Assembly (NCBI GenBank): GCA_913055625.1 | Contig: CAJXJW010000001.1 | Coordinates: 186,001 to 250,000, forward strand | DNA from: an uncultured Pseudomonadota bacterium | Lineage (GTDB): Bacteria > Pseudomonadota > Gammaproteobacteria > Steroidobacterales > Woeseiaceae | DNA length: 64,000 nucleotides | Reading direction: 5' to 3' | In this document: piece after piece, positions 45,896-58,259 of the stretch | Numbering within the stretch: position 1 is the stretch's first letter | Layout of the letters: each line of letters opens with the position of its first letter | Notes under the pieces: model-generated | The model's database searches: none | Told to the model about the DNA's origin: nothing | Seen by the model: the letters and a program-made list of their open reading frames with translations, nothing else | Made by a program: the position numbers and the translations under genes

Positions 45896-47443
45896 ATGGA
45901 AGTGCTGATTCGAACGGCGCGCCTCGCCGGCGCGCTGACATTCCTGGCCACGGTCTTGCCGGCCGCCGCGGGCGACCGGACCGCTGCGACGCCCGGCGAG
46001 GAGCGCTCGGCCTACGTGCGCACGCAGGATGCCGACGCGCCGTTGCTCACGATCGCCGACTGGTTGCGGCGCGGCGAGTCGGTATTCTCGGCGCAGTGGA
46101 CACCCGTCGAGGGCGCCGGCCGGCCGATGTCGACGGGCACCGGCGCGCCGCTCGCGGACGGCAGCCGACCGCTCACGTTCCCGCACAATTTCAACCGAGT
46201 GTCGGCACGGGACGCGAACAGCTGCGCCGGCTGCCACAATGCCCCGTACGGCATCGCCGGCGGAGGAGGGGACTTCGTCACCGGCGTATTCGTCGCCGCC
46301 CAACGCTTCGATTTCGCCACGCTCGACGCGGGCGACGGAGTTCTGCTGCGCGGCGCGGTTGCCGAGACCGGCGCGCCGGTGGATCTGCAGTCGATCGGAA
46401 ATTTTCGCGCCACGCCCGGCATGTTTGGCGCCGGCTTCATCGAGATGCTGGCGCGCCAGATGACCGCCGACCTGCAGGACGCGCGTGATCGCCTCGGCCC
46501 CGGCGGCTCGGTGGTGTTGTCGTCGAAAGGCGTCCAATTCGGGACGCTGGCGCGGGCCGCGGACGGCCGCTGGCTCGTCGCCGAAGTGGAGGGGTTGCCG
46601 GCGCAGAGCACGCGCAGCGCGGGCCCCGCGAATCCGCCGTCGCTGGTGATTCACCCGTTCCACCAATCGGGCAGCGTGGTGTCATTGCGGCAGTTCACAA
46701 ACAATGCCTTCAACCACCACCACGGCATGCAGTCCGTCGAGCGCTTCGGCGACGGCACGGACCCGGACGGCGACGGCATCGTCGATGAGCTTACGCGCGC
46801 CGACATCACGGCCGCGACGCTGTTCCAGGCAGCACTGCCGGTGCCGGTGGTCGAGTTTCCGCGGGACCCGGTGCTGCGGAAGGCTGCGGTGCGCGGGCGC
46901 CGGCTGTTTTCCCAGATCGGCTGCGCCGATTGTCATCGACCGACGCTCGCCCTGGATGACGAGGGCTGGATCTACACGGAGCCGAATCCCTACAACCCGG
47001 ACGGCAACCTGCGGCCAGGCGACGCGCCGACGGTGCGCATGGACCTGACGAGTCCGGCGCTGCCGGGACCGCGGTTGCGTGCGAAGCACGGCGTCGTGCG
47101 CGTGCCGGCGTTCACCGACCTCAAGTTGCACGACATCACGTCCGGTCCGGACGACCCCAATGCGGAGGCCGTCGACATCAACGAGCCGGGAGGCTCACCG
47201 GGGTTCTTCGCGGGGAACAGGCGGTTCCTGACGAAGAAACTCTGGGGCGCGGCGAACGAGACGCCGTATTTCCACCACGGCCTGTACACCACCCTTCGTG
47301 CCGCGACCCTGGGGCACGCGGGCGAGGCGCGCGTCGCGCGCGAGGCCTTCGAGTCCCTGTCGCCCGCAGACCAGGGTCGGGTCATCGAGTTCCTGAAGAC
47401 GTTGCGGGTAGCCGGGCCTCGCGAACGCGGGCGGCGCCACTGA
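45896..47443 (+). CDS. Di-haem oxidoreductase/peroxidase-like c-type cytochrome (DUF1111 type)
   Basis: A 515-residue exported protein from ATG 45896 (AAGGAG seven bases upstream) with a signal peptide ending LPAAAG. Two haem-binding CxxCH motifs are present: CAGCH in the N-terminal half and CADCH in the C-terminal half (RLFSQIGCADCHRPTLALDDEGW). The DHOR/DUF1111 blocks FGAGFIEMLARQM, TNNAFNHHHGMQSVERFGDG, RTPAFTDLKLHDIT-like (RVPAFTDLKLHDIT) and LTKKLWGAANETPYFHHGLYTTL are clear. It likely acts as a periplasmic peroxidase or electron acceptor. It is divergent from the Tat flavoprotein, and its stop abuts the stop of the next, convergent gene. Confidence 0.9.
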   Translation: MEVLIRTARLAGALTFLATVLPAAAGDRTAATPGEERSAYVRTQDADAPLLTIADWLRRGESVFSAQWTPVEGAGRPMSTGTGAPLADGSRPLTFPHNFNRVSARDANSCAGCHNAPYGIAGGGGDFVTGVFVAAQRFDFATLDAGDGVLLRGAVAETGAPVDLQSIGNFRATPGMFGAGFIEMLARQMTADLQDARDRLGPGGSVVLSSKGVQFGTLARAADGRWLVAEVEGLPAQSTRSAGPANPPSLVIHPFHQSGSVVSLRQFTNNAFNHHHGMQSVERFGDGTDPDGDGIVDELTRADITAATLFQAALPVPVVEFPRDPVLRKAAVRGRRLFSQIGCADCHRPTLALDDEGWIYTEPNPYNPDGNLRPGDAPTVRMDLTSPALPGPRLRAKHGVVRVPAFTDLKLHDITSGPDDPNAEAVDINEPGGSPGFFAGNRRFLTKKLWGAANETPYFHHGLYTTLRAATLGHAGEARVAREAFESLSPADQGRVIEFLKTLRVAGPRERGRRH

Positions 47444-48295
47444 TCAGCCGGACAGCGACGCACCGCGGGCGACGGCGCCTTTCAGGAGTTCCAGGACCAG
47501 CCACACGAAGACGATGGGCAGGATGATCGTCTGCAGCACGAACAGCACGATCAGGTTCACGATGTGTTCGCTCGCATTCGCGGTCGCCATGCGCAGACGA
47601 TCGAGTCGCGCCTCGACGTCCATGGAACGCCAGGTGTCACGAATCGTCGTGCCGAGACGGTCCATGAACGATTCGTCACCCGGCGGCAGCGCGGGCGCGG
47701 CGCCGGCGTTCAGGTCCTCGATCGTCGCGCTCGTCGCTTCGAGCGCGGCGGTCGCGGTGCGTTGTTCGGGCTCGAGAAAATGCGTGGCGACGGTATTCGT
47801 CGCGATGATCAGCGACGGCACGATGAAGCGCAGGGCGAGCGTCATGACGAGGAGGTTCGTGCCGGTGACCACGTATCGACGTTCGGCCATGCCGGGCCAC
47901 CAGAGGAGAATCACGGCCGCCGCGCCGGCCAGGCAAAGCGCGGCGGTAAAGCCCCACCAGCGCGTCATTTTCAACAGGACATTCTGCAGGCCGAGGGAAC
48001 TGGTCGCGACCAGCATCACGCCCGAGAACTGCTCGACGAGATCGTTGATCGGGTCGAGCACTTCGCCGACGCCGAGATTGACGCCGACGCCGCCCGGTTC
48101 CAGGGCGAGTTCGGTGCCTTGCGCGAGCGAGATGACGCCGTTCAGCGTCCGTGCCACCGCGAACGTGACGAGCGCGCGGCGAAAGGCGTCCTCGGCATAC
48201 TCCTCGGCGGCGTCGTCGACGATGCCGCTGGCCGCCAGGGCAATCGCCAGCACAATCATGAGCGTCCACGCGATCTTTCGCTTCTGCATCGGCAT
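47444..48295 (-). CDS. Uncharacterised membrane protein
   Basis: A 283-residue protein I do not recognise. Membrane helices are predicted by eye at about 7-24, 112-134, 143-167 and 240-268. A soluble region between the third and last helix carries an amphipathic helix (ATAALEATSATIEDLNAG) and DESFMDRLGTTIRDTWRSMDVEARLDRLRMATANASEHIVNLIVLFVLQ. The N-terminus MPMQKRKIAWTLMIVLAIALAASGIVDDAAEEYAEDAF could be an uncleaved signal. It is divergent from the TIR gene (225-base gap) and abuts the cytochrome gene. A channel-like architecture is possible, but no homology supports it. Confidence 0.75.
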   Translation of the reverse strand: MPMQKRKIAWTLMIVLAIALAASGIVDDAAEEYAEDAFRRALVTFAVARTLNGVISLAQGTELALEPGGVGVNLGVGEVLDPINDLVEQFSGVMLVATSSLGLQNVLLKMTRWWGFTAALCLAGAAAVILLWWPGMAERRYVVTGTNLLVMTLALRFIVPSLIIATNTVATHFLEPEQRTATAALEATSATIEDLNAGAAPALPPGDESFMDRLGTTIRDTWRSMDVEARLDRLRMATANASEHIVNLIVLFVLQTIILPIVFVWLVLELLKGAVARGASLSG

Positions 48296-48472
48296 ACGGC
48301 CTCGGAACCGGGTTCCCGGATGCTAGCACGGCGGCCGGCCACCGCCGGCCCGGCCGGAGCGTCGGCCGACTGGTCTCCCCCTTATGTTAAGGCCGGCCCG
48401 TCGTGGTCCGGAACGCCCACCGCACCGGACATTTCCCGGCAGCCGAAAGGGCGATTCGTTACACTTGGCACG

Positions 48473-48510
48473 GCCGGTCAAAGACCGGCGCTCGACCGGT
48501 CGACGACCGG
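48473..48510. promoter_or_regulatory. Clustered CCGGTC/GACCGG palindromes before the TIR gene
   Basis: GCCGGTC-AAA-GACCGGC (48473-48489), then CGACCGGTCG (48493-48502), then GACCGG (48505-48510), ending 10 bases before the TIR GTG start. This may be an operator array or a leader hairpin that hides the ribosome site GGGGAG at 48509-48514. A TACACT -10-like hexamer lies at 48460-48465. Confidence 0.5.
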
Positions 48511-48520
48511 GGAGACGAGG

Positions 48521-50722
48521 GTGGCCGATAAATACAAGTACAAGGCCTTCATCAGCTACAGCCACGCCGACGAAAAATGGGCGTCCTGGCTGCACAAGGC
48601 GCTGGAGACCTACCGGGTTCCGAAACACCTGGTGGGGCAGCCGACCGATTTCGGTCCGGTGCCGGAACGGCTTGCGCCTGTTTTTCGTGACCGCGAGGAA
48701 TTGGCGTCTGCCACGAATCTCGGTGACACACTGACCGAAGCACTGCGCGGCTCCGCGTGCCAGATCGTGATCTGCTCACCGCGGGCCGCGAAGTCGCACT
48801 GGACGAACGAGGAGATCGTCACGTTCAAGCGGCTCGGCCGCGCACACCGCATCTTCGCGCTAATCGTCGACGGTGAGCCCGGCGCGTCCGGCAATCCGGA
48901 CACCGCGGACGAGGAGTGCTTTCCGCCGGCATTGATTTACGAACTCGGGCCGGACAAGAAGCTCTCCGATGTCCGGACGGAGCCGATCGCGGCCGACGCT
49001 CGCCCCGGCAAGGACCCGCGGCAGGCAGCGAAGCTGAAACTGATCGCCGGGATGCTCGGCGTCGGTTACGACGACCTTGCCCAGCGCGACGCGCACCGGC
49101 GGCACCGGCGCATGATGGCGCTGTCGGCGGCGGCGTCGGTCGGCATGCTCGTGACGTCGGGGCTTGCGGTCACGGCCTACCTGGCGCGCAACCAGGCGCA
49201 GATCGAGGCCGAGAAGGCGAACCAGACCACGCGCTTTCTCGTGGACATGTTCCGCATGTCCGATCCGAGCGAGGCGAGGGGCAATACCATCACGGTGCGC
49301 GAGGTCCTGGACAAGGGCGCCGATCGCATCGAGGACGAACTGGCCGAGCAGCCGGAAATACAGGCGACGCTAATGGACACGATGGGCACCGTGTACCAGA
49401 GCCTGGCGCTGCTGCCCGAATCCGCATCCCTGCTCGAGAAGTCGCTGGCGAAACGTGTCGCGTTGTTCGGGCCGGACAGCGAACACGTGGCGCAGGCCCA
49501 GGCGCATCTCGCCGAAGTGCTCGGTTTACAGGCACGGTACTCGGAGTCGGAGCCGATGTTCCGCGCAGCGCTGGAAACCCAGCGCAAGGAACTGGGCGAC
49601 GAATCTGCCGCGGTCGCCGCCTCCCTGCAGGGCCTGGCCGACGTCCTCACCATGGAAGGGCGCTTCGACGAGGCCGAGCCACTGCTGCGCGAATCGCTGG
49701 ACATCTATCGGTCGATGGGCGACGGGGAGTCGCGCGACGTCGCCGAGGCGCTCGAGTACCTTGGCATGAACCTGTACGACCAGGGGCAGTACGACGACGC
49801 GGAGCGGCTATTGCGCGACTCGGTCGCACTTCAGCGACGGCTGACGCCCGATAGTCTGCACCCGGATCTCGCCGACGCGATCAGCAACCTGGCGCTGGTC
49901 CTCAGTGGCGGTAGCGACACCGCGGAGGTCGAGGCACTGTACCGCGAGGCACTGGCCATCAACCGGGCCGTGCTGGATCCGACACATACGACCATTGCGG
50001 CCAACCTGAACAACCTCGCATTCCTGTTGCATGACAAGGGGGAACTCGCGGCGGCGGAAGCACTGTATCGCGACGTCATCAGCATCCGTCGGCAGCGGCT
50101 CGGCGCTGAGCACCCGGAGGTTGCGCTCGCGATGAACAATCTCGCCTTCCTGTTGTACGACAAAGGCGATGTCGGCGGGGCCATGGACATGGCCTCGCAG
50201 TCGCTGGCCATGCTCAATCGCTTGTTTCCCGACGGGCAGCATCCGCACATCGCGACGTCGTTGACGAACCTCGCACGTTGGTCGATCGATCAGGGCTCGT
50301 ACGCAGAGGCGGAGCCGCTCCTCGCCCGGTCGCTCGACATCCAGGAGGCCCAGTTGGGTCGGGATCACCCTCGATACGCAGTGTCGCAAACGGAGATGGC
50401 TCGCGTTTACCTGCTGACGGGCCAACCGGAGCTGGCAGCCGAAGCGGCGGCTGAGGCACGAGAGACCCTGGCGCGCACGCTGTCGCCGGCACACTGGCGG
50501 ACCGCCTGGGCCGGCGCCGTCGAAGGCGCTGCCCGTCTGGAGCAGGGCGATACGGAGCAGGCCGAGGTCCTGCTTCTCGATAGCTACAACGTGATCCAGG
50601 ACGACCCGACGGTCGGGAATCAGGTCACCGAGAGTACCAGCTCGTTTCTCGCGCGCCTGTATCTCGAATCCGGGAGGCCGGAGATGGCGGCGCAGGTCGT
50701 CGCCGGCACGGAAGCGGAATGA
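48521..50722 (+). CDS. TIR domain - transmembrane helix - TPR repeat protein
   Basis: A 733-residue protein from GTG 48521 (GGGGAG upstream). Residues 5-185 form a TIR domain: YKAFISYSHADEKWASWLHKALE, the BB-loop region VFRDREELASATNLGDTLTEAL, and SPRAAKSHWTNEEIVTFKRLG, where E98 lies four residues after W94, the position of the catalytic glutamate in SARM1/AbTir-type NADases. One membrane helix follows (about 198-221) after a basic HRRHRRMM stretch, which by the positive-inside rule puts TIR in the cytoplasm and the C-terminal ~510 residues outside. That part contains kinesin-light-chain-like TPRs (NLAFLLHDKGELAAAEALYRDVISIRRQRLGAEHPEVA). Possibly an NAD-cleaving signalling receptor. Confidence 0.9.
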   Translation: MADKYKYKAFISYSHADEKWASWLHKALETYRVPKHLVGQPTDFGPVPERLAPVFRDREELASATNLGDTLTEALRGSACQIVICSPRAAKSHWTNEEIVTFKRLGRAHRIFALIVDGEPGASGNPDTADEECFPPALIYELGPDKKLSDVRTEPIAADARPGKDPRQAAKLKLIAGMLGVGYDDLAQRDAHRRHRRMMALSAAASVGMLVTSGLAVTAYLARNQAQIEAEKANQTTRFLVDMFRMSDPSEARGNTITVREVLDKGADRIEDELAEQPEIQATLMDTMGTVYQSLALLPESASLLEKSLAKRVALFGPDSEHVAQAQAHLAEVLGLQARYSESEPMFRAALETQRKELGDESAAVAASLQGLADVLTMEGRFDEAEPLLRESLDIYRSMGDGESRDVAEALEYLGMNLYDQGQYDDAERLLRDSVALQRRLTPDSLHPDLADAISNLALVLSGGSDTAEVEALYREALAINRAVLDPTHTTIAANLNNLAFLLHDKGELAAAEALYRDVISIRRQRLGAEHPEVALAMNNLAFLLYDKGDVGGAMDMASQSLAMLNRLFPDGQHPHIATSLTNLARWSIDQGSYAEAEPLLARSLDIQEAQLGRDHPRYAVSQTEMARVYLLTGQPELAAEAAAEARETLARTLSPAHWRTAWAGAVEGAARLEQGDTEQAEVLLLDSYNVIQDDPTVGNQVTESTSSFLARLYLESGRPEMAAQVVAGTEAE

Positions 50723-50731
50723 TGCAGTCCG

Positions 50732-50750
50732 CGGTCCTGGCGAAGGACCG
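50732..50750 (+). repeat. Short hairpin between TIR and lectin genes
   Basis: CGGTCC-TGGCGAA-GGACCG starts 10 bases after the TIR stop. It is a possible attenuator or processing site within the presumed operon and has no T-run. Confidence 0.35.
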
Positions 50751-50835
50751 GATGATGGATTGCCCGGCGAGTCGAGGCCATGTAGCCCTGCACCCGCAAC
50801 GATAACAAGAACACAGAACCAGGAAGGGAGCTCTT

Positions 50836-52416
50836 ATGAATACGTCAGTGCGAAAAAATTCGATACTGGTCGTGCTGTTGGCCGGTCTTCTGCCCAGCCT
50901 GGCCAGCCGGGCCGAGACACCCGGGCCGGTCCAGTGCGGCGGCCCGGAGGGCAGCTGTTACCAGGTCTTCATTTATGATGCCGAGCCGAATACCGAGGCA
51001 TCGAAAGGCTGGCCTTCCGCCCGGACGGCGGCGAACGGCAAGCTGAACGACGGTGTATCTGGCCATCTGGCGACGATTACGTCGCCCGAGGAAGACGAGT
51101 TCATCCGCTTGCTCGCGATCCAGACGTTCGCCGACACCGGGCTTCCGTCGGGGGAGCTCTGGGTGGGCGGGCAGCAATTGCCGATCGACGGCGCCTTCGT
51201 CGAGCCGGACGTCAATTGGTCCTGGATCAATGGCGAAGGGCTCTTCATGTACCAGAACTGGGAAGACGGGGAGCCAAACAACCAGGGTGGCGAGCAGTAC
51301 CTCGGTATTGGATTGGGAGGATTCGGTCAGCAAGACTACGGATGGAACGATGAACGGGTCCTCGGCAATATCCGGGGCTACGTGGTCGAGTTCGGTGCCT
51401 GGTTCCCGCAGGAAAATGCGGACGTGCTGCCACCCAGCCCGCTGACGCAGATGACGGCGGTGGCCCAGGAGGTCGTCGAGGCGGGCACGTTCCGGCAGTA
51501 CAGCTGCTTGTTGTCTCAGCCGGTCCATTCCTACGGAGCGACGAACCTGGTCCGGGAGATCCGGAATACCCCGGGGTGCGAAGAACTGGCCGAGAACCTC
51601 GCTCCCGGCTCCAAGGCGTGGTTGCACCCTTACCAGCGTGCCTTCGCGACGATTGTGGATGACAACGGCAACGTCTATGACAACACCGTGGCGCAGGGTT
51701 CGGGACGGCATGCCCGCCTCGAAGCGAACTTCGTGGTGACGCTCGTCACCACGCGGGATCTGAACGGCCAGCCGGCGGCACTCACGCGCGGCGTGCTGCT
51801 GTCCGAGGAGGAAGCGGCGACCCTGCTGCCCGCAGAACCGACTTGCAATACGTCCCCGGTCAGTGACTCGCCGACCACGGTCGGTGTCACGTTGTCGGAG
51901 CGGACGTCGAGCGGAAGCCTGGCGAGGAACGTGACCGCGACCTGCAACCGTACGCGCAGCGCGGTGCGATTCTCCGACAACCTCTTTGCCTATCCGATCC
52001 GCAATATCTCGGCGGTCGCCCACCCCTGGATCCAGGTCCTGCAGGAAGGCATCGATCTCCGGCAGACCATCAATATGGCCTTACGCGATCGTTGCGTCGA
52101 TCCGCAATTCCTTCGCGAGCTCCGCCGACAAACGGACGCCGCGCTGGTCAATGCACTGTCCGGCCAGGTCGCTCGCATCGAGGCTGGAATCGCGGCCTTC
52201 CAGGAGGCGACGGTATTCGCGCTTGACGTGCCGGGCGAGACATACGGTGATTGCCCGGGCGAACCGAAGGGCGAGATCGGCAGTCGGCTCCTGGGCATCA
52301 CTTTTCAGGTACACCGGGGATTGCGCTACCCTGACACCTATGTGCTGTACCAGATTCCCGACGAGATCAAGGATCTGCTGCCGAGCTTTGCCGGCGAGAC
52401 ACCACCGGTCCAGTAG
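50836..52416 (+). CDS. Exported C-type lectin-fold protein
   Basis: A 526-residue secreted or periplasmic protein. The signal peptide is about 1-26 (ending ASRAE). Residues ~40-187 form a C-type lectin domain: GHLATITSPEEDEFI, LWVGGQQ, WSWINGEG, then E146-P147-N148 in NWEDGEPNN and W170-N171-D172 in YGWNDERV. EPN plus WND is the calcium and mannose/glucose-type binding signature of animal lectins. The remaining ~330 residues carry several cysteines and beta-rich sequence I do not recognise. AGGAAGGGAG precedes the ATG. It lies 113 bases after the TIR gene and 84 before the SLOG gene, apparently in one operon. Confidence 0.85.
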   Translation: MNTSVRKNSILVVLLAGLLPSLASRAETPGPVQCGGPEGSCYQVFIYDAEPNTEASKGWPSARTAANGKLNDGVSGHLATITSPEEDEFIRLLAIQTFADTGLPSGELWVGGQQLPIDGAFVEPDVNWSWINGEGLFMYQNWEDGEPNNQGGEQYLGIGLGGFGQQDYGWNDERVLGNIRGYVVEFGAWFPQENADVLPPSPLTQMTAVAQEVVEAGTFRQYSCLLSQPVHSYGATNLVREIRNTPGCEELAENLAPGSKAWLHPYQRAFATIVDDNGNVYDNTVAQGSGRHARLEANFVVTLVTTRDLNGQPAALTRGVLLSEEEAATLLPAEPTCNTSPVSDSPTTVGVTLSERTSSGSLARNVTATCNRTRSAVRFSDNLFAYPIRNISAVAHPWIQVLQEGIDLRQTINMALRDRCVDPQFLRELRRQTDAALVNALSGQVARIEAGIAAFQEATVFALDVPGETYGDCPGEPKGEIGSRLLGITFQVHRGLRYPDTYVLYQIPDEIKDLLPSFAGETPPVQ

Positions 52417-52500
52417 TCCCGAACTGCAGTCGTGCCGTGACCACCGTCCGCCGGCCCCGGGCGTGTGCTTGCGGCGCGGCTCGTTTGGGCACGTGACGGG

Positions 52501-55017
52501 ATGACCAGCCTGAGGCAGCAGCCCGGTTTGCGCGGGAGCGAGTCGAAGTCGCGGCCGCTGATCGTCGGCGTCACCGGCCACCGGGACCTCGTCCCGGAGG
52601 AGATCAGCGCGATTCAGCGACGCGTCCGCGCACTGTTCGACGAGCTGCGTGATACGTTTCCCGGGCGCCCGTTACGCTTGTTGTCGCCGCTCGCCGAAGG
52701 CGCGGACCGGCTGGTGGCGCTGATCGCCGAGGATCTCGGCATCGACCTCGTCGTGCCGATGCCGATGCCGGAATCGCTGTACGCGAAGGACTTCGAGTCG
52801 AGCCGTTCGTGGGCCGAGTTCGGCCGGCTGACGCGCTACGCCCGCGAGACTCTGGTGCTGCCCCTGGCGCCCGGGTGCACGCCGGAGTCGATCGCCGAAT
52901 ATGGGCACGACCGGAACCGGCAGTACGCGGAAGCCGGTGCCTGGGTTGCCGCACACGCGGATGTGCTCCTCGCGCTGTGGGACGGTAAGACGACCGGCGA
53001 CCTCGGTGGTACCGGCCACGTGGTGCAGTTCAGACGCTCCGGCACTATGCCCGACTACCTGCCGTGCTTCGTCGAACGGCCGACACACGATCTCGTGGCG
53101 CACGTCGCCTGCACGCGGGATCGGCAATTCGGCGAACCGGCCGATGGTCTTGAACCAGCCTCCATGCGCTGGCTCACGCGCCGCAAGGAACCGTGGCCGG
53201 CGATGCCGAGCCACGCGGTCGAGAGAATCAATCGCCTGGCGCCGATGAGTCGCGATGACGGTGCCGCGAGCGCGTCGGTCATCGAGGATTCCTACCGCTT
53301 CCCGCTGGTGATCGGCGTGACGGGGCACCGCGACCTGCGCACCGACGAGTTGCCCGGTATCCGGCAGCGAGTCCGCGAGTTGTTCCTGGCACTTCGCGAA
53401 CGCTACCCGCAGCGCAGGCTGCGCCTGTTGACGCCGCTGGCCGAGGGCGCAGACCGGCTGGTCGCCGAGGAGGCATTGTCACTCGACGTCGAAATCCGCG
53501 TCGTGTTGCCGATGCCGCGCCACATTTACTACACCGACTTCGGCTCCGAGTCGTCGATCGTGGCGTTCAACGCGCTCTACCGGCGCGCGAGCGGCGTCCT
53601 GACCCTGCCGCTGGCACGCGACCATACGCTGGACGATATCCGGAGCCCGGGGCCTGCGCGCGACCTGCAGTACGCGCAGGCCGGCGTATTCCTGTCGGCA
53701 CATTGCCACATCCTCCTCGCCCTGTGGGACGGCAAGATATCCGGAAAGCTCGGCGGCACCGCGCAAGTCGTTCGTTTCCACCACCACGACATCATGCCCG
53801 GCTACTCGACGCGGTCTGTCGCGACGCAGCAGATGCTGATCGACGACGAGAGCGACCTGATCTATCACGTCGTGTGCTCGCGCGAAGGGCCCGACGGCAC
53901 GCCGGCCGAGCCGTTCGAGCCGCTCGAGTGCTGGTGGTACACGAATGACCGGCATGAACCGCGCACGCGCGAACTCCCGCGCCAGCACGAGCTCGTCTTT
54001 CGCCGATCCAGCGAGTTCAGCGAGGACGCGACCCGGTTCAAGTCCCGCATTGCGGACGAATGTTATCCGCTCTACGACCCCGAATCGGACAACGCGCTGC
54101 CGCGCGGCCTCGTGTCGGTCAATCACCTGTTCTGCATCAGCGACTGGCTGGCGATTCACTACCAGAAGCTTACGATGCTGACGCTGCGCGGCACCCACGT
54201 GCTCGCGTTCCTGATGGGTATCATGTTCATCCTGTATTCCGACGTCGGAACGCAGGAGATCTACATCGGCGCGTTTCTCGTCTTCTTCGTGCTGGCGGCT
54301 GGCCTGCAACGCTTCGCCATCGAGAAAGGCTGGCAGCGCAAGTACCTGGACTACCGGGCGCTCGCGGAAGGGCTCCGGGTCCAGTTCTACCTGACGGCTG
54401 CCGGCATCACGAGCGACAACGAGTCCAAGTTCACGCACGACAACTTCCTGCAGACGCAGGACCCCGAGCTCGGCTGGATTCGCAACGTCATGCGCGTAGC
54501 CGGGACGCGTGCCGATGCGGAGCGCAACGTGACGCCGGAAGGTCTCGCGTTCACCATCCGGGAGTGGATTGGCGACGACCAGGGCGGGCAACTCGGCTAC
54601 TACAAGCGCAAGGCGGCGCAGTGGGTGCAGCGCAATCGCACGACGCAGCGACTCTCGGCACTGAGCCTCGCGACCAGCGTTATCGTCGTGCTCGTCATCC
54701 TGGTCGCGGGGCGGACGCTCGGCGACGACGTCGTCAACCCGTTGTTCGCGTTCATGGGCATGATCCTGCTCGCGTACGCGGTACGGCAGGGCTTTGCGCA
54801 GAGCACGGCGGAGAAGGAGTTGATCAAGCAGTACGAGTTCATGTTGCGCGTCTTCGAGAACGCCGAACGCCGCCTGGAAAACGCGGACGACGACGCGGAA
54901 CGTCGCCAGATCATCCGGGCGCTCGGCGGCTCGTGCCTGGACGAGCATGCGGAGTGGATCCTCATGCACCGGGACCGCTCGATCGACCAGGGCGATATCT
55001 GGCGGCCCGGTAGCTGA
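52501..55017 (+). CDS. Tandem SLOG-like domains with four-helix SLATT-like membrane region
   Basis: An 838-residue protein from ATG 52501 (GTG 52465 is an alternative 12 codons earlier). Two repeats share a Rossmann-type SLOG pattern: residues 20-215 (LIVGVTGHRDL ... LRLLSPLAEGADRLVA ... YAEAGAWVAAHADVLLALWDGK) and 268-465 (LVIGVTGHRDL ... LRLLTPLAEGADRLVA ... YAQAGVFLSAHCHILLALWDGK). After a linker come helices at about 563-580 and 587-603, a soluble segment (YLDYRALAEGLRVQFYLTAAGI), and helices at 721-737 and 743-760, resembling SLATT effectors. SLOG domains bind nucleotide-derived ligands; the membrane part is a plausible pore-forming effector. Its pairing with a TIR gene recalls Thoeris. 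Confidence 0.88.
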   Translation: MTSLRQQPGLRGSESKSRPLIVGVTGHRDLVPEEISAIQRRVRALFDELRDTFPGRPLRLLSPLAEGADRLVALIAEDLGIDLVVPMPMPESLYAKDFESSRSWAEFGRLTRYARETLVLPLAPGCTPESIAEYGHDRNRQYAEAGAWVAAHADVLLALWDGKTTGDLGGTGHVVQFRRSGTMPDYLPCFVERPTHDLVAHVACTRDRQFGEPADGLEPASMRWLTRRKEPWPAMPSHAVERINRLAPMSRDDGAASASVIEDSYRFPLVIGVTGHRDLRTDELPGIRQRVRELFLALRERYPQRRLRLLTPLAEGADRLVAEEALSLDVEIRVVLPMPRHIYYTDFGSESSIVAFNALYRRASGVLTLPLARDHTLDDIRSPGPARDLQYAQAGVFLSAHCHILLALWDGKISGKLGGTAQVVRFHHHDIMPGYSTRSVATQQMLIDDESDLIYHVVCSREGPDGTPAEPFEPLECWWYTNDRHEPRTRELPRQHELVFRRSSEFSEDATRFKSRIADECYPLYDPESDNALPRGLVSVNHLFCISDWLAIHYQKLTMLTLRGTHVLAFLMGIMFILYSDVGTQEIYIGAFLVFFVLAAGLQRFAIEKGWQRKYLDYRALAEGLRVQFYLTAAGITSDNESKFTHDNFLQTQDPELGWIRNVMRVAGTRADAERNVTPEGLAFTIREWIGDDQGGQLGYYKRKAAQWVQRNRTTQRLSALSLATSVIVVLVILVAGRTLGDDVVNPLFAFMGMILLAYAVRQGFAQSTAEKELIKQYEFMLRVFENAERRLENADDDAERRQIIRALGGSCLDEHAEWILMHRDRSIDQGDIWRPGS

Positions 55018-55062
55018 CGTGCGGACGAACGCCCTCGGCGGCCGGCGGCCGGCCCTTGCCGC

Positions 55063-56955
55063 ATGAGCGCCGTGATCGGCGCGGGCCGGGTTTTCGATTC
55101 CGCCGACGTGCTGGTCGACAGTATCGTCGGGCGGCTGGGTCGCCGGATCGTCCTCGGGCTTCCGGTGGGCATCGGCAAGGCCAATCGCGTGGCCAACGCG
55201 CTGTATCACCGGGCCCGGACGGACCGGACGCTCGACCTGACGATCTTCACCGGGCTGACGTTGTCACCGCCTGCGCCGACCAGCGGGTTCGCGCAGCGGC
55301 TCGCCGGGCCGATCGTCGATCGCCTGTACGCGGACTGGCCGGCGCTGGATTTCGAGACGGACAGGGTGCGCGGCACCTTGCCGGAGAATGTCCGGGTTCG
55401 TGAGTTCTACCTGCGACCCGGGGCCTATCTCGGCAATGCGGCCGTGCAGCAGGCCTACACCAGCATCAACTACAGCCGGGTCGCGGCCGAACTGCTGCGG
55501 CTCGGCGTCAACCTGGTGGCGCAACTCGTCGCGCCGCACCCGAACGGCGAGCCGACGGTCAGCCTCGGCAGCAACCCGGAAGTCACGCTCGACCTGATGC
55601 CGGCGCTGGAGGGGCGGCCGCACCTTCTCGTCGGCGAGGTCAACCCGAACCTGCCGTACATGCCGGGCGCCGCCGAGATGGCCGCGTCGGCATTCGACGG
55701 GCTGCTCGACGCGGCGGAGACCCGCTATCCGCTCTTTGCGCTTCCGAACCGCGCCGTGGGCCACGCGGACTATGCCGCCGGCATGCACGTGGCGAGCCTC
55801 GTACCGGACGGTGGTACGCTGCAGGTAGGCATCGGTTCGATGAGCGACGCCGTGGCGCACTGCCTGCGCCTCCGGCACGAGAACAATACGCTGTTCCGCG
55901 ACGTGCTGCGGCGCCTGCCCGGCGGCACGGCGTCGCCACACAGGGGCGAGCTGCCGATCGAAGACCGCCCGTTCTCTCAGGGGCTGTACAGCTGCACGGA
56001 GCTCCTGAGCGACGCCGTGTTCTCGCTGTTCCGCGCCGGCATCGTCCGCCGGCCGGCGGACGACCGCGACGACGCGGTGATACATGCGGGGTTCTTCATC
56101 GGCTCGCCCGCCCTCTACGATGGCTTGCGGGCGCTCGCGCCGGCGCAGCGCCGGCGCATCGCGATGTCGCCGATTTCCTGGGTCAACACGCTCTACGGCG
56201 ACGAACAGCGCAAGCGCCGGCAGCGCAGGGATGCCCGGTTCGTCAACGAAACGATGATGGTGACCTTGCTCGGCGCGGCCGTGTCAGACGCGCTCGACGA
56301 CGGCCGCGTGGTCAGCGGGATCGGCGGCCAGTTCGACTTCGTCGACATGGCCGGCGCGCTGCCGTCGTCGCACTCGATCCTGATGCTGCACAGCTGGCGG
56401 CGGCATGGCGGCCGTGCGCGGTCGAACATTCGCTGGTCTTATGCGCACAACAGCGTGCCCCGTCAGCATCGGGACCTGTTCGTGACCGAGTACGGCGTCG
56501 CCGCCACGCGCGGCCGCCCCGACAGCGAGGTGATCGAGTCATTGCTCCGGATCGCCGACGCACGCTTCCAGGACTCGCTCGCGGCGTCGGCGTGCGATGC
56601 CGGAAAGCTGCGGGCGTCTTTCCGCGCTGAATCAGCGCCCGGCCAGAACCGGCCGGATGCGATCGAGCGCGTGTTTCGTGACCCGGCCATCGCCGCGCAT
56701 TTTCCGGCGTATCCTCTCGGCAGCGTGCTGTCGCAGGAGGAACAGGCGCTGGCCGCGGCCCTGCAGTGGCTGAAGGAGACGTCCGCGACGACCTCCGGCA
56801 AGTGGCGAATCCTGCGCGGCGCTGCCGGCCGTGGTGGTGGGCAGGAGCGCCGGGCAGCAGAACTCCAGCGCATGGGCCTTGCGAGCCCGGACGGCCTGCG
56901 CGAACGCTGGCTGCGTCGCGTCCTCCGGTTCGCCCTCGACGAAACGGGGCGTTGA
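55063..56955 (+). CDS. Acetyl-CoA hydrolase/transferase family protein
   Basis: A 630-residue protein of the class I CoA-transferase fold. The N-terminal domain (VGRLGRRIVLGLPVGIGKANRVANALYHRA, FTGLTLSPP) and C-terminal AcetylCoA_hyd_C domain (GSPALYDGLRALAPAQRRRIAMSPISWVNTLYGDE, ETMMVTLLGAAVSDALDDGRVVSGIGGQFDFVDMA) are both present. This long form occurs in many proteobacteria and probably transfers or hydrolyses CoA between short acids. It begins 45 bases after the SLOG gene on the same strand; a link to that system seems unlikely but shared transcription is possible. It is convergent with the TerB-like gene. Confidence 0.9.
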   Translation: MSAVIGAGRVFDSADVLVDSIVGRLGRRIVLGLPVGIGKANRVANALYHRARTDRTLDLTIFTGLTLSPPAPTSGFAQRLAGPIVDRLYADWPALDFETDRVRGTLPENVRVREFYLRPGAYLGNAAVQQAYTSINYSRVAAELLRLGVNLVAQLVAPHPNGEPTVSLGSNPEVTLDLMPALEGRPHLLVGEVNPNLPYMPGAAEMAASAFDGLLDAAETRYPLFALPNRAVGHADYAAGMHVASLVPDGGTLQVGIGSMSDAVAHCLRLRHENNTLFRDVLRRLPGGTASPHRGELPIEDRPFSQGLYSCTELLSDAVFSLFRAGIVRRPADDRDDAVIHAGFFIGSPALYDGLRALAPAQRRRIAMSPISWVNTLYGDEQRKRRQRRDARFVNETMMVTLLGAAVSDALDDGRVVSGIGGQFDFVDMAGALPSSHSILMLHSWRRHGGRARSNIRWSYAHNSVPRQHRDLFVTEYGVAATRGRPDSEVIESLLRIADARFQDSLAASACDAGKLRASFRAESAPGQNRPDAIERVFRDPAIAAHFPAYPLGSVLSQEEQALAAALQWLKETSATTSGKWRILRGAAGRGGGQERRAAELQRMGLASPDGLRERWLRRVLRFALDETGR

Positions 56956-56968
56956 CGAAAGCCGTGTG

Positions 56969-57442
56969 TCAGGCCGCGCCGCTTGCGAGTGCGGCGTCGT
57001 GTTTCAATCGCATGACGAGGCCGCGGCTGACGTACAGGAGGTCGCTGATCCGCAGCACCAGCGCGTCCTCGAACTTGTCCAGTTCGCCGTCAGCGTAGGC
57101 CACGCGCCACAACGACGCGACGATCTCCGCTTTCTCGCTGTCGCCCAGCGACTCGTGCAACAGGTGGGTGAACTCGTGCAGTGACACGAGGTCGTCGGCC
57201 GTCGCATCGGCCCGGGCGGTGAGCGCTGCCGCGTCGTCGGCAGACAGTCCGAAGCGTGCGCGCACGAGCGATTCGATGTGCTGTGCCTCGACGTCGGAGA
57301 AACGGTTGTCGGCGCGAGCGACCTCGACCATCAGGACCGCGGTAGCGAGCCGCACCGCCTCGTCGCGACGGGCCTGCCGGCTCTTGTCGTCGCCGGGCTG
57401 GCCGACGGCGTCGGCCACGCGTTCGAAGAGGCGGCGCAGCAT
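56969..57442 (-). CDS. TerB-family protein
   Basis: A 157-residue all-helical protein. AVRLATAVLMVEVARADNRFSDVEAQHIESLVRARFGLS and EKAEIVASLWRVAYADGELDKFEDALVLRISDLLYVS are the two pseudo-repeats of the TerB fold, each with the conserved acidic metal-binding positions (ARAD, YADGELD). The start is ATG 57442 (MLRRLFERVADAVGQ); longer upstream reading overlaps the DUF3014 gene. The fold is named after tellurite resistance, but most stand-alone members have no tested role and may bind calcium at the membrane. It lies seven bases downstream of the DUF3014 gene. Confidence 0.9.
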   Translation of the reverse strand: MLRRLFERVADAVGQPGDDKSRQARRDEAVRLATAVLMVEVARADNRFSDVEAQHIESLVRARFGLSADDAAALTARADATADDLVSLHEFTHLLHESLGDSEKAEIVASLWRVAYADGELDKFEDALVLRISDLLYVSRGLVMRLKHDAALASGAA

Positions 57443-57449
57443 GCCCGGA

Positions 57450-58259
57450 CTAGGAGTCCCCGGCCAGCCGATCCCGCAATTCCGCGAGCCGGCTGTTGAC
57501 GGCAGCGGCATTCGCGGGCCCGATGCGAATGAGCAACTTGTGGCCCACCGACAGCGATTCGAGTTCGGGGTCGGCGTACTGGAACAGTACATGCGGCCGC
57601 ACGAGCGCGGGTGCTGTCGCCGGGGTCGGCGCGGCGAGCAGGTGGTCGATCACCTCGATGACCCGGTCGTTGAACCAGGCGTCGGGATAGCCCAGGCCCT
57701 CGTAGGCTTCCTGCAGCAAGGGGTAGTAGCGCCGGTACAGTTCCGCCATGGCGTCCGGGTCCGTGGACACGAACAGCATCACCAGCGATTCGTACCGTGC
57801 GTAGTTTTCGGCAGAAATGCGCAGGTCGTTGCCTTCGGCCGTGCCTTCCGTGAGAAAGGCGCCGGGCGGCGCCGCGACCGGGCGCATGCGCTCGGCAAGT
57901 TTCGAACGCGGCAGGTTGTCGATGGTCACCACGACTTTCTCGATGACGGCTTCGTTCGCCAGCAGTTCCTCGAGACCGGGACCGAACAGGCCGCCGAGTT
58001 CGAGCTTGAAGAAGCGGTCACTGTCGTTGAGTGCCGGCAACGGGACGTAACGCGACGCGTCCGACGGGGCGGCGTCGATCGGCGGGCGTACCGGGTGCCG
58101 CGGTGTTGCGTCAGCCGGCTCCGGCACCTGTTCCGGCATCGCCGGTCGCTCGGCAACGGGGTCCGGAACCGCGTACCGGGTCCAGGCATACCACAGCATG
58201 ACGGCGACGACGGCGGTGATGAGGGCGGCGACCAGCCATTGTTCCGTGCGTGTTTTCAT
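57450..58259 (-). CDS. DUF3014 membrane-anchored protein
   Basis: A 269-residue protein with one N-terminal membrane anchor (about 8-27) followed by a proline-rich linker (VPDPVAERPAMPEQVPEPADATPRHPVRPP) and a soluble periplasmic domain. The domain blocks LPALNDSDRFFKLELGGLFGPGLEELLANEAVIEKVVVTIDNLPR and LLQEAYEGLGYPDAWFNDRVIEVIDHLLAAP match DUF3014, common in gammaproteobacteria and of unknown function. The start is ATG 58259; an earlier in-frame start would add 21 unlikely residues. Probably cotranscribed with the TerB-like gene. Confidence 0.88.
   Translation of the reverse strand: MKTRTEQWLVAALITAVVAVMLWYAWTRYAVPDPVAERPAMPEQVPEPADATPRHPVRPPIDAAPSDASRYVPLPALNDSDRFFKLELGGLFGPGLEELLANEAVIEKVVVTIDNLPRSKLAERMRPVAAPPGAFLTEGTAEGNDLRISAENYARYESLVMLFVSTDPDAMAELYRRYYPLLQEAYEGLGYPDAWFNDRVIEVIDHLLAAPTPATAPALVRPHVLFQYADPELESLSVGHKLLIRIGPANAAAVNSRLAELRDRLAGDS

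Follow-up and report, generated by a model that had tools for sequence, protein, structure and literature searches.

An exported C-type-lectin-like protein in the exchangeable middle position of a conserved receptor and SLOG-SLATT gene cassette

The window analysed here, a 64,000-nucleotide stretch of a contig from an uncultured Woeseiaceae bacterium (CAJXJW010000001.1), carries three genes in a row on the forward strand: a receptor-like TIR-TPR protein, an exported C-type-lectin-like protein and a SLOG-SLATT membrane protein (Table 1). The locus lies outside any recognisable defence island, and PADLOC returns no match for the lectin or the SLOG gene. Downstream, on the reverse strand at 56969–57541, is a TerB-family gene (PF05099, 3.1e-29); ORFs with a similar N-terminus occur near two related loci, L033 and L036.

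Table 1 Features of the three-gene locus (window coordinates)
Feature	Position	Strand	Basis
Gene 1, receptor, TIR – single TM helix – TPR repeats, 733 aa, GTG start assumed	48521..50722	+	Pfam TIR_2 2.7e-12, TPR_12 3.6e-60
TIR domain, residues 10–118, E98 in WTNEE at the catalytic-glutamate position	48548..48874	+	Pfam
Predicted transmembrane helix, residues about 199–222, RRHRR on the cytoplasmic side	49115..49186	+	Hydropathy, charge
TPR region, predicted periplasmic; part of the receptor varying with the exported partner	49223..50719	+	Pfam, identity comparisons
Gene 2, exported C-type-lectin-like protein, 526 aa	50836..52416	+	ORF
Signal-peptide-like N-terminus, residues 1–26	50836..50913	+	Hydrophobic N-terminal segment
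C-type-lectin-like domain (CTLD), residues about 38–187	50947..51396	+	Sequence matches, AlphaFold model, Foldseek
EPN motif, residues 146–148	51271..51279	+	
WND motif, residues 170–172	51343..51351	+	
Lectin C-terminal region, residues 190–526	51403..52413	+	Full-length kinship to L029, model
Predicted helical bundle in lectin, residues 392–497	52009..52326	+	Model, low confidence
Gene 3, SLOG-SLOG-SLATT membrane protein, 838 aa, proposed nucleotide-gated effector	52501..55017	+	
First SLOG domain, extra copy	52534..53196	+	Second match to A1 profile
Second SLOG domain and SLATT-like TM region (TM helices in residues about 537–832)	53242..55014	+	

With phmmer, the middle gene matches CD23 and a C-type lectin of a mosquito (E 1e-4 to 4e-4, CD23 at 1e-4). 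Pfam Lectin_C reaches E 0.012 on the window copy, under its cut-off, and so misses it when used alone; one full-length relative clears that cut-off. Foldseek places mannose-receptor CRD4 at the top of the PDB matches to the AlphaFold model (prob 1.00, TM 0.64–0.69, E 2e-3), in agreement with the lectin domain proposed in the initial annotation. The whole-chain model is poor (mean pLDDT 48.6, the C-terminal half unreliable), with moderate pLDDT inside the CTLD, about 50–84 by block. Together, the phmmer matches, the relative above the Pfam cut-off and the CRD4-like predicted fold establish that the window protein carries a domain of the CTLD superfamily fold.

Both triplets, which in animal C-type lectins bind sugar, lie in a genuine ORF at the sites where they had first been reported and, with E153 read from the sequence between them, complete the ligand set of a calcium-dependent mannose-type CRD (E146-P147-N148, E153 and W170-N171-D172). 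A second EPN at residue 50 is a chance occurrence. The conserved disulfides of animal CRDs are absent, there being no cysteine between residues 42 and 223. Most lectins of the cassette described below keep the EPN/E/WND set, with departures in L022 (QPD), L023 (EPD/WID) and L044 (EPT, without WND). Ordinary bacterial CTLDs, such as the PEP-CTERM-like lectin L017, have EPN and WND too; the motif is therefore not the remarkable part of this protein.

The TIR gene proposed next to the lectin is also real. Its E98 sits at a position that we take to be equivalent to the catalytic glutamate of SARM1, and all TIR members retain a glutamate there. The TM helix is placed between the TIR or STAND module and the TPRs, with N-in/C-out topology by the positive-inside rule in every receptor of the family. 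Since the positive charges sit on the N-terminal side of the helix, hydropathy and charge predict a periplasmic location for the TPRs. In relatives, an alternative receptor is built as DUF4062 and an nSTAND1 NTPase (PF20703, 1.4e-96), a TM helix and TPRs.

Gene 3 is better modelled (pLDDT 81.5). Its best structural matches are YpsA (E 1.8e-4), ShosA and DprA, each at prob 1.00, and the model confirms a SLOG (YpsA/DprA-like) fold. The tandem SLOG pair is found only in the window copy and close relatives. The TM part contains helix pairs and draws weak matches to SLATT_3 and SLATT_1, all under curated cut-offs. SLOG-SLATT is the most conserved of the three genes.

An order-wide search found CTLD relatives in 11 of 296 genomes, nine of them full-length, the window included. 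Each of the nine full-length lectin genes comes immediately after a TIR-TPR or STAND-TPR receptor gene, and in eight a SLOG-SLATT gene follows. The window and L024 have a TIR-TM-TPR receptor, and the other full-length loci with a visible receptor start have DUF4062 + nSTAND1-TM-TPR; the CTLD is found paired with both receptor kinds. The suspected tie between lectin and adjacent receptor gene holds in every full-length relative from this search. The reading of the TIR as a constant partner is only partly right: a TPR receptor gene precedes every one of these lectins, but DUF4062 + nSTAND1 replaces the TIR in most relatives. The remaining two CTLD relatives, L017 and L025, are short, generic PEP-CTERM-like lectins with unrelated neighbours and were rejected as cassette members. 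Also rejected was L004, a weak C-terminal match (E 5.6e-4) lying out of frame within a thiolase gene, as chance. A direct GTDB scan with the lectin alone gave no matches. L022 consists of a receptor and a lectin with no adjacent SLOG-SLATT gene.

For a wider survey, a SLOG-SLATT profile served as anchor (39 loci), and exported genes were detected by six-frame searches. SLOG-SLATT occurs in 57 of 296 genomes of the order, 5 of 369 of the class and 6 of 299 of the phylum, our own genome being counted each time. The order receptor, exported gene, SLOG-SLATT is kept in many non-redundant loci. The lectin is the middle gene of a conserved cassette: a TIR or DUF4062 + nSTAND1 receptor, an exported protein and SLOG-SLATT. 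An exported gene is present wherever the receptor TPR is of the close type; in loci without one, the TPR is divergent or missing.

Several loci show other configurations. L097–L101, from another family of the order, form a two-gene unit of DUF4062-nSTAND1-TM-TPR and SLOG-SLATT with no recognised exported gene. Solitary SLOG-SLATT genes, with neither a receptor nor an exported gene recognised beside them, occur in L026, L043, L045, L046, L053 and L061, and TIR-like ORFs of different types adjoin SLOG-SLATT in L074 and L111. Cassette genes appear broken or split in L041, L051, L058 and L095, where sequencing error in the metagenome-assembled genomes is possible; L095 has its nSTAND1 and TPR parts on separate ORFs, and SLOG-SLATT in pieces is found among these four.

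The lectin is not a constant partner of TIR-TPR genes, as at least four other exported types occupy the same place. Besides the CTLD, the middle position is held by an Ig-like type (Big_7 detected in L060), LDRVD, P978 and the L091/L095 type (T72); LDRVD, P978 and T72 resemble β-propellers, as judged by eye only. Mapped onto the SLOG-SLATT tree, the exported type has changed at least seven times and the receptor module at least four times. The closest SLOG relatives of the window, L033 and L036 (about 76–77% identical), both carry the unrelated P978 protein, and L033 has the same flanking genes as the window. In a search for an empty site at the window locus, the one genome with these flanking genes on a single contig was a carrier of the cassette too.

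Homology links the C-terminal parts of the CTLD, LDRVD and Ig types (hhalign 6e-8, 4e-6 and 4e-4; reversed controls 5e-3 or worse), which suggests a single common coupling region. P978 and T72 C-termini show no detectable homology to the other types. The last 330 residues of the window lectin, initially said to look novel, belong to a family region with relatives that can be detected, though weakly for this copy, and that reading is only partly right. The window lectin is akin to L029 over its full length (hhalign 3.7e-15), the two forming a CTLD subtype, and its C-terminus matches other CTLD members only weakly (E 0.074).

Exchange of the middle gene is mirrored in the TPR region of the receptor. 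Window and L033 are 68% identical in TIR and 76% in SLOG, and only 36% in TPR; L033 and L036, with a common exported type, are 66% identical in TPR. Given SLOG identity, sharing an exported type adds 10.7 points of TPR identity across 18 loci, and 12.6 points when only the 11 TIR loci are taken. An effect of this size appeared in none of 20,000 label permutations, a procedure that does not fully correct for descent. Control comparisons gave no comparable effect of exported type for TIR (p 0.15) or SLOG (p 0.21). The trio L034, L035 and L039 makes the same point: TIR is 82–85% and SLOG 70–71% identical in every pair, with TPR at 70% for L034/L035, which share a partner type, and 44–45% between different types. 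In L035, TPR similarity pointed to a CTLD, and a frame-by-frame search then found an intact lectin behind the receptor. Because TPR identity, unlike that of TIR or SLOG, follows the exported type, the simplest reading of these alignments is that TPR and exported protein form a matched pair. Alternatively, the TPR and exported gene could move together as linked DNA, although SLOG, which in most loci is the neighbour on the opposite flank, does not move with them.

We propose, with about even confidence, that the three genes form an outside-in sensing cassette in which the lectin serves as the exchangeable subunit that binds the ligand. The proposal is built on what can be read from the genes themselves (the export signal and CTLD of the lectin, the order of the genes, their predicted topology and folds, swapping and covariation), from which we infer ligand binding, catalysis, a second messenger, pore opening and any role in defence. 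The exported protein would bind a ligand outside the inner membrane, in CTLD versions a glycan or surface molecule, and would dock on, or leave, the TPRs of its own receptor on the periplasmic side. The signal would pass the single TM helix and activate the cytoplasmic TIR or DUF4062 + nSTAND1 module. TIR may produce an NAD-derived nucleotide for the SLOG domain or domains to bind, much as the SLOG of Thoeris ThsA senses a TIR product (PMC11204291). The SLATT TM bundle might then open or cluster, depolarising the membrane and leading to growth arrest or death; SLATT has been predicted to be a membrane effector regulated by ADP-ribose derivatives (PMC9503650, PMC7159879). The likeliest setting would be cell-surface defence, with phage or rivals as the target.

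The same three genes could instead make up a non-immune envelope or nutrient sensor, its exported domains binding polysaccharides or peptidoglycan fragments and its TIR and SLOG-SLATT parts tuning membrane physiology without killing. Consistent with such a role, the locus is chromosomal and has metabolic neighbours (acetyl-CoA hydrolase, ABC transporter), a congener is syntenic at this site, and no matches were obtained for the lectin in plasmids or for SLOG-SLATT in phages or viral contigs; on those same null searches a mobile-element origin was rejected. We nevertheless consider it rather unlikely, since occurrence is patchy (SLOG-SLATT in 57 of 296 order genomes, the full-length lectin in nine), the exported part has been swapped repeatedly, and TIR, nSTAND1, SLOG and SLATT are otherwise described in conflict systems (PMC7159879, PMC9503650).

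Type-matching of the exported partner and TPR, which switch together among near relatives, would also be expected if the exported protein were a ligand displayed to neighbours and read by the paired TPR, with mismatch triggering the effector. This form of kin or non-self recognition seems improbable to us: no dedicated delivery system is seen beside the locus, a CTLD suggests carbohydrate over protein recognition, and a periplasmic partner would serve equally well. Least probable, and by our estimate very doubtful, is that the lectin acts as an ordinary adhesin or scavenger, its place in one operon with the TIR and SLOG genes being incidental. Bacterial CTLDs can be stand-alone secreted proteins, as the short PEP-CTERM-like matches L017 and L025 in unrelated contexts illustrate, but all full-length relatives in the order-wide search lie directly behind a TPR receptor gene, and TPR divergence follows the exported type.

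Taken as an outside-in sensor, the cassette may, more tentatively, represent a class of bacterial cell-surface pattern-recognition receptors, in which a transmembrane TIR or STAND protein with outer TPRs and a swappable exported sensor would send a nucleotide to a SLOG-gated pore. Known bacterial TIR and STAND immunity mostly senses threats in the cytoplasm. If true, such a class would be its mirror image, letting bacteria start the same chemistry from the cell surface, like animal Toll-like and C-type lectin receptors. The paired switches of TPR and exported gene make the recognition code directly testable.

Among known systems, Thoeris (a ThsB TIR with a SIR2-SLOG or TM-macro ThsA; PMC11204291) resembles the cassette in setting a TIR beside a SLOG protein, and both probably work by sending a nucleotide signal to an effector. 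The window TIR agrees with ThsB (TIR_2 2.7e-12, E98 at the catalytic position), and TM-macro ThsA (PMC11204291), a nucleotide-triggered membrane effector, is comparable to the role proposed for gene 3. Gene 3, a SLOG-SLOG-SLATT protein, matches neither SIR2 nor macro, and for want of such an effector the cassette is not Thoeris. It also differs in fusing SLOG to SLATT-like helices, in a membrane-spanning TIR protein with predicted periplasmic TPRs and an exported partner, and in allowing DUF4062 + nSTAND1 to replace the TIR. The TIR/SLATT and SLOG/SLATT conflict genes predicted by Aravind and colleagues would have in common with the cassette a SLATT membrane effector, for which they predict a response to an ADP-ribose derivative, and a TIR-DrHyd-SLOG logic; the excerpts covered describe for them neither an exported, swappable lectin-type subunit nor a TM-TPR receptor (PMC9503650, PMC7159879).

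Avs-like STAND NTPase antiviral systems combine nSTAND1 and TPR as in the alternative receptor. Theirs is a cytoplasmic STAND with TPRs, whereas the window receptor has a TIR and the nSTAND1 of relatives has a TM helix before the TPRs; sensing would therefore occur outside the cytoplasm. The cassette further differs from them in allowing a TIR in place of STAND and in its extra exported gene. For DGR-diversified CLec proteins, encoded next to STAND or TIR genes, the C-type lectin fold has been proposed to act as the sensor, and some targets are predicted to be exported or periplasmic (PMC10907252). DGR diversification of the window lectin was considered and rejected, no template/variable repeat pair being found in window positions 47000–57000. 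Apart from lectin or Ig domains where present, the exported genes have no model in PADLOC, Pfam or NCBIfam, and a search of open-access papers and family libraries did not turn up the cassette arrangement. Unlike the DGR-linked sensors, the cassette bears its CTLD on a separate exported protein and gains diversity through whole-gene swaps. The parts are of known kinds; their arrangement appears to be new.
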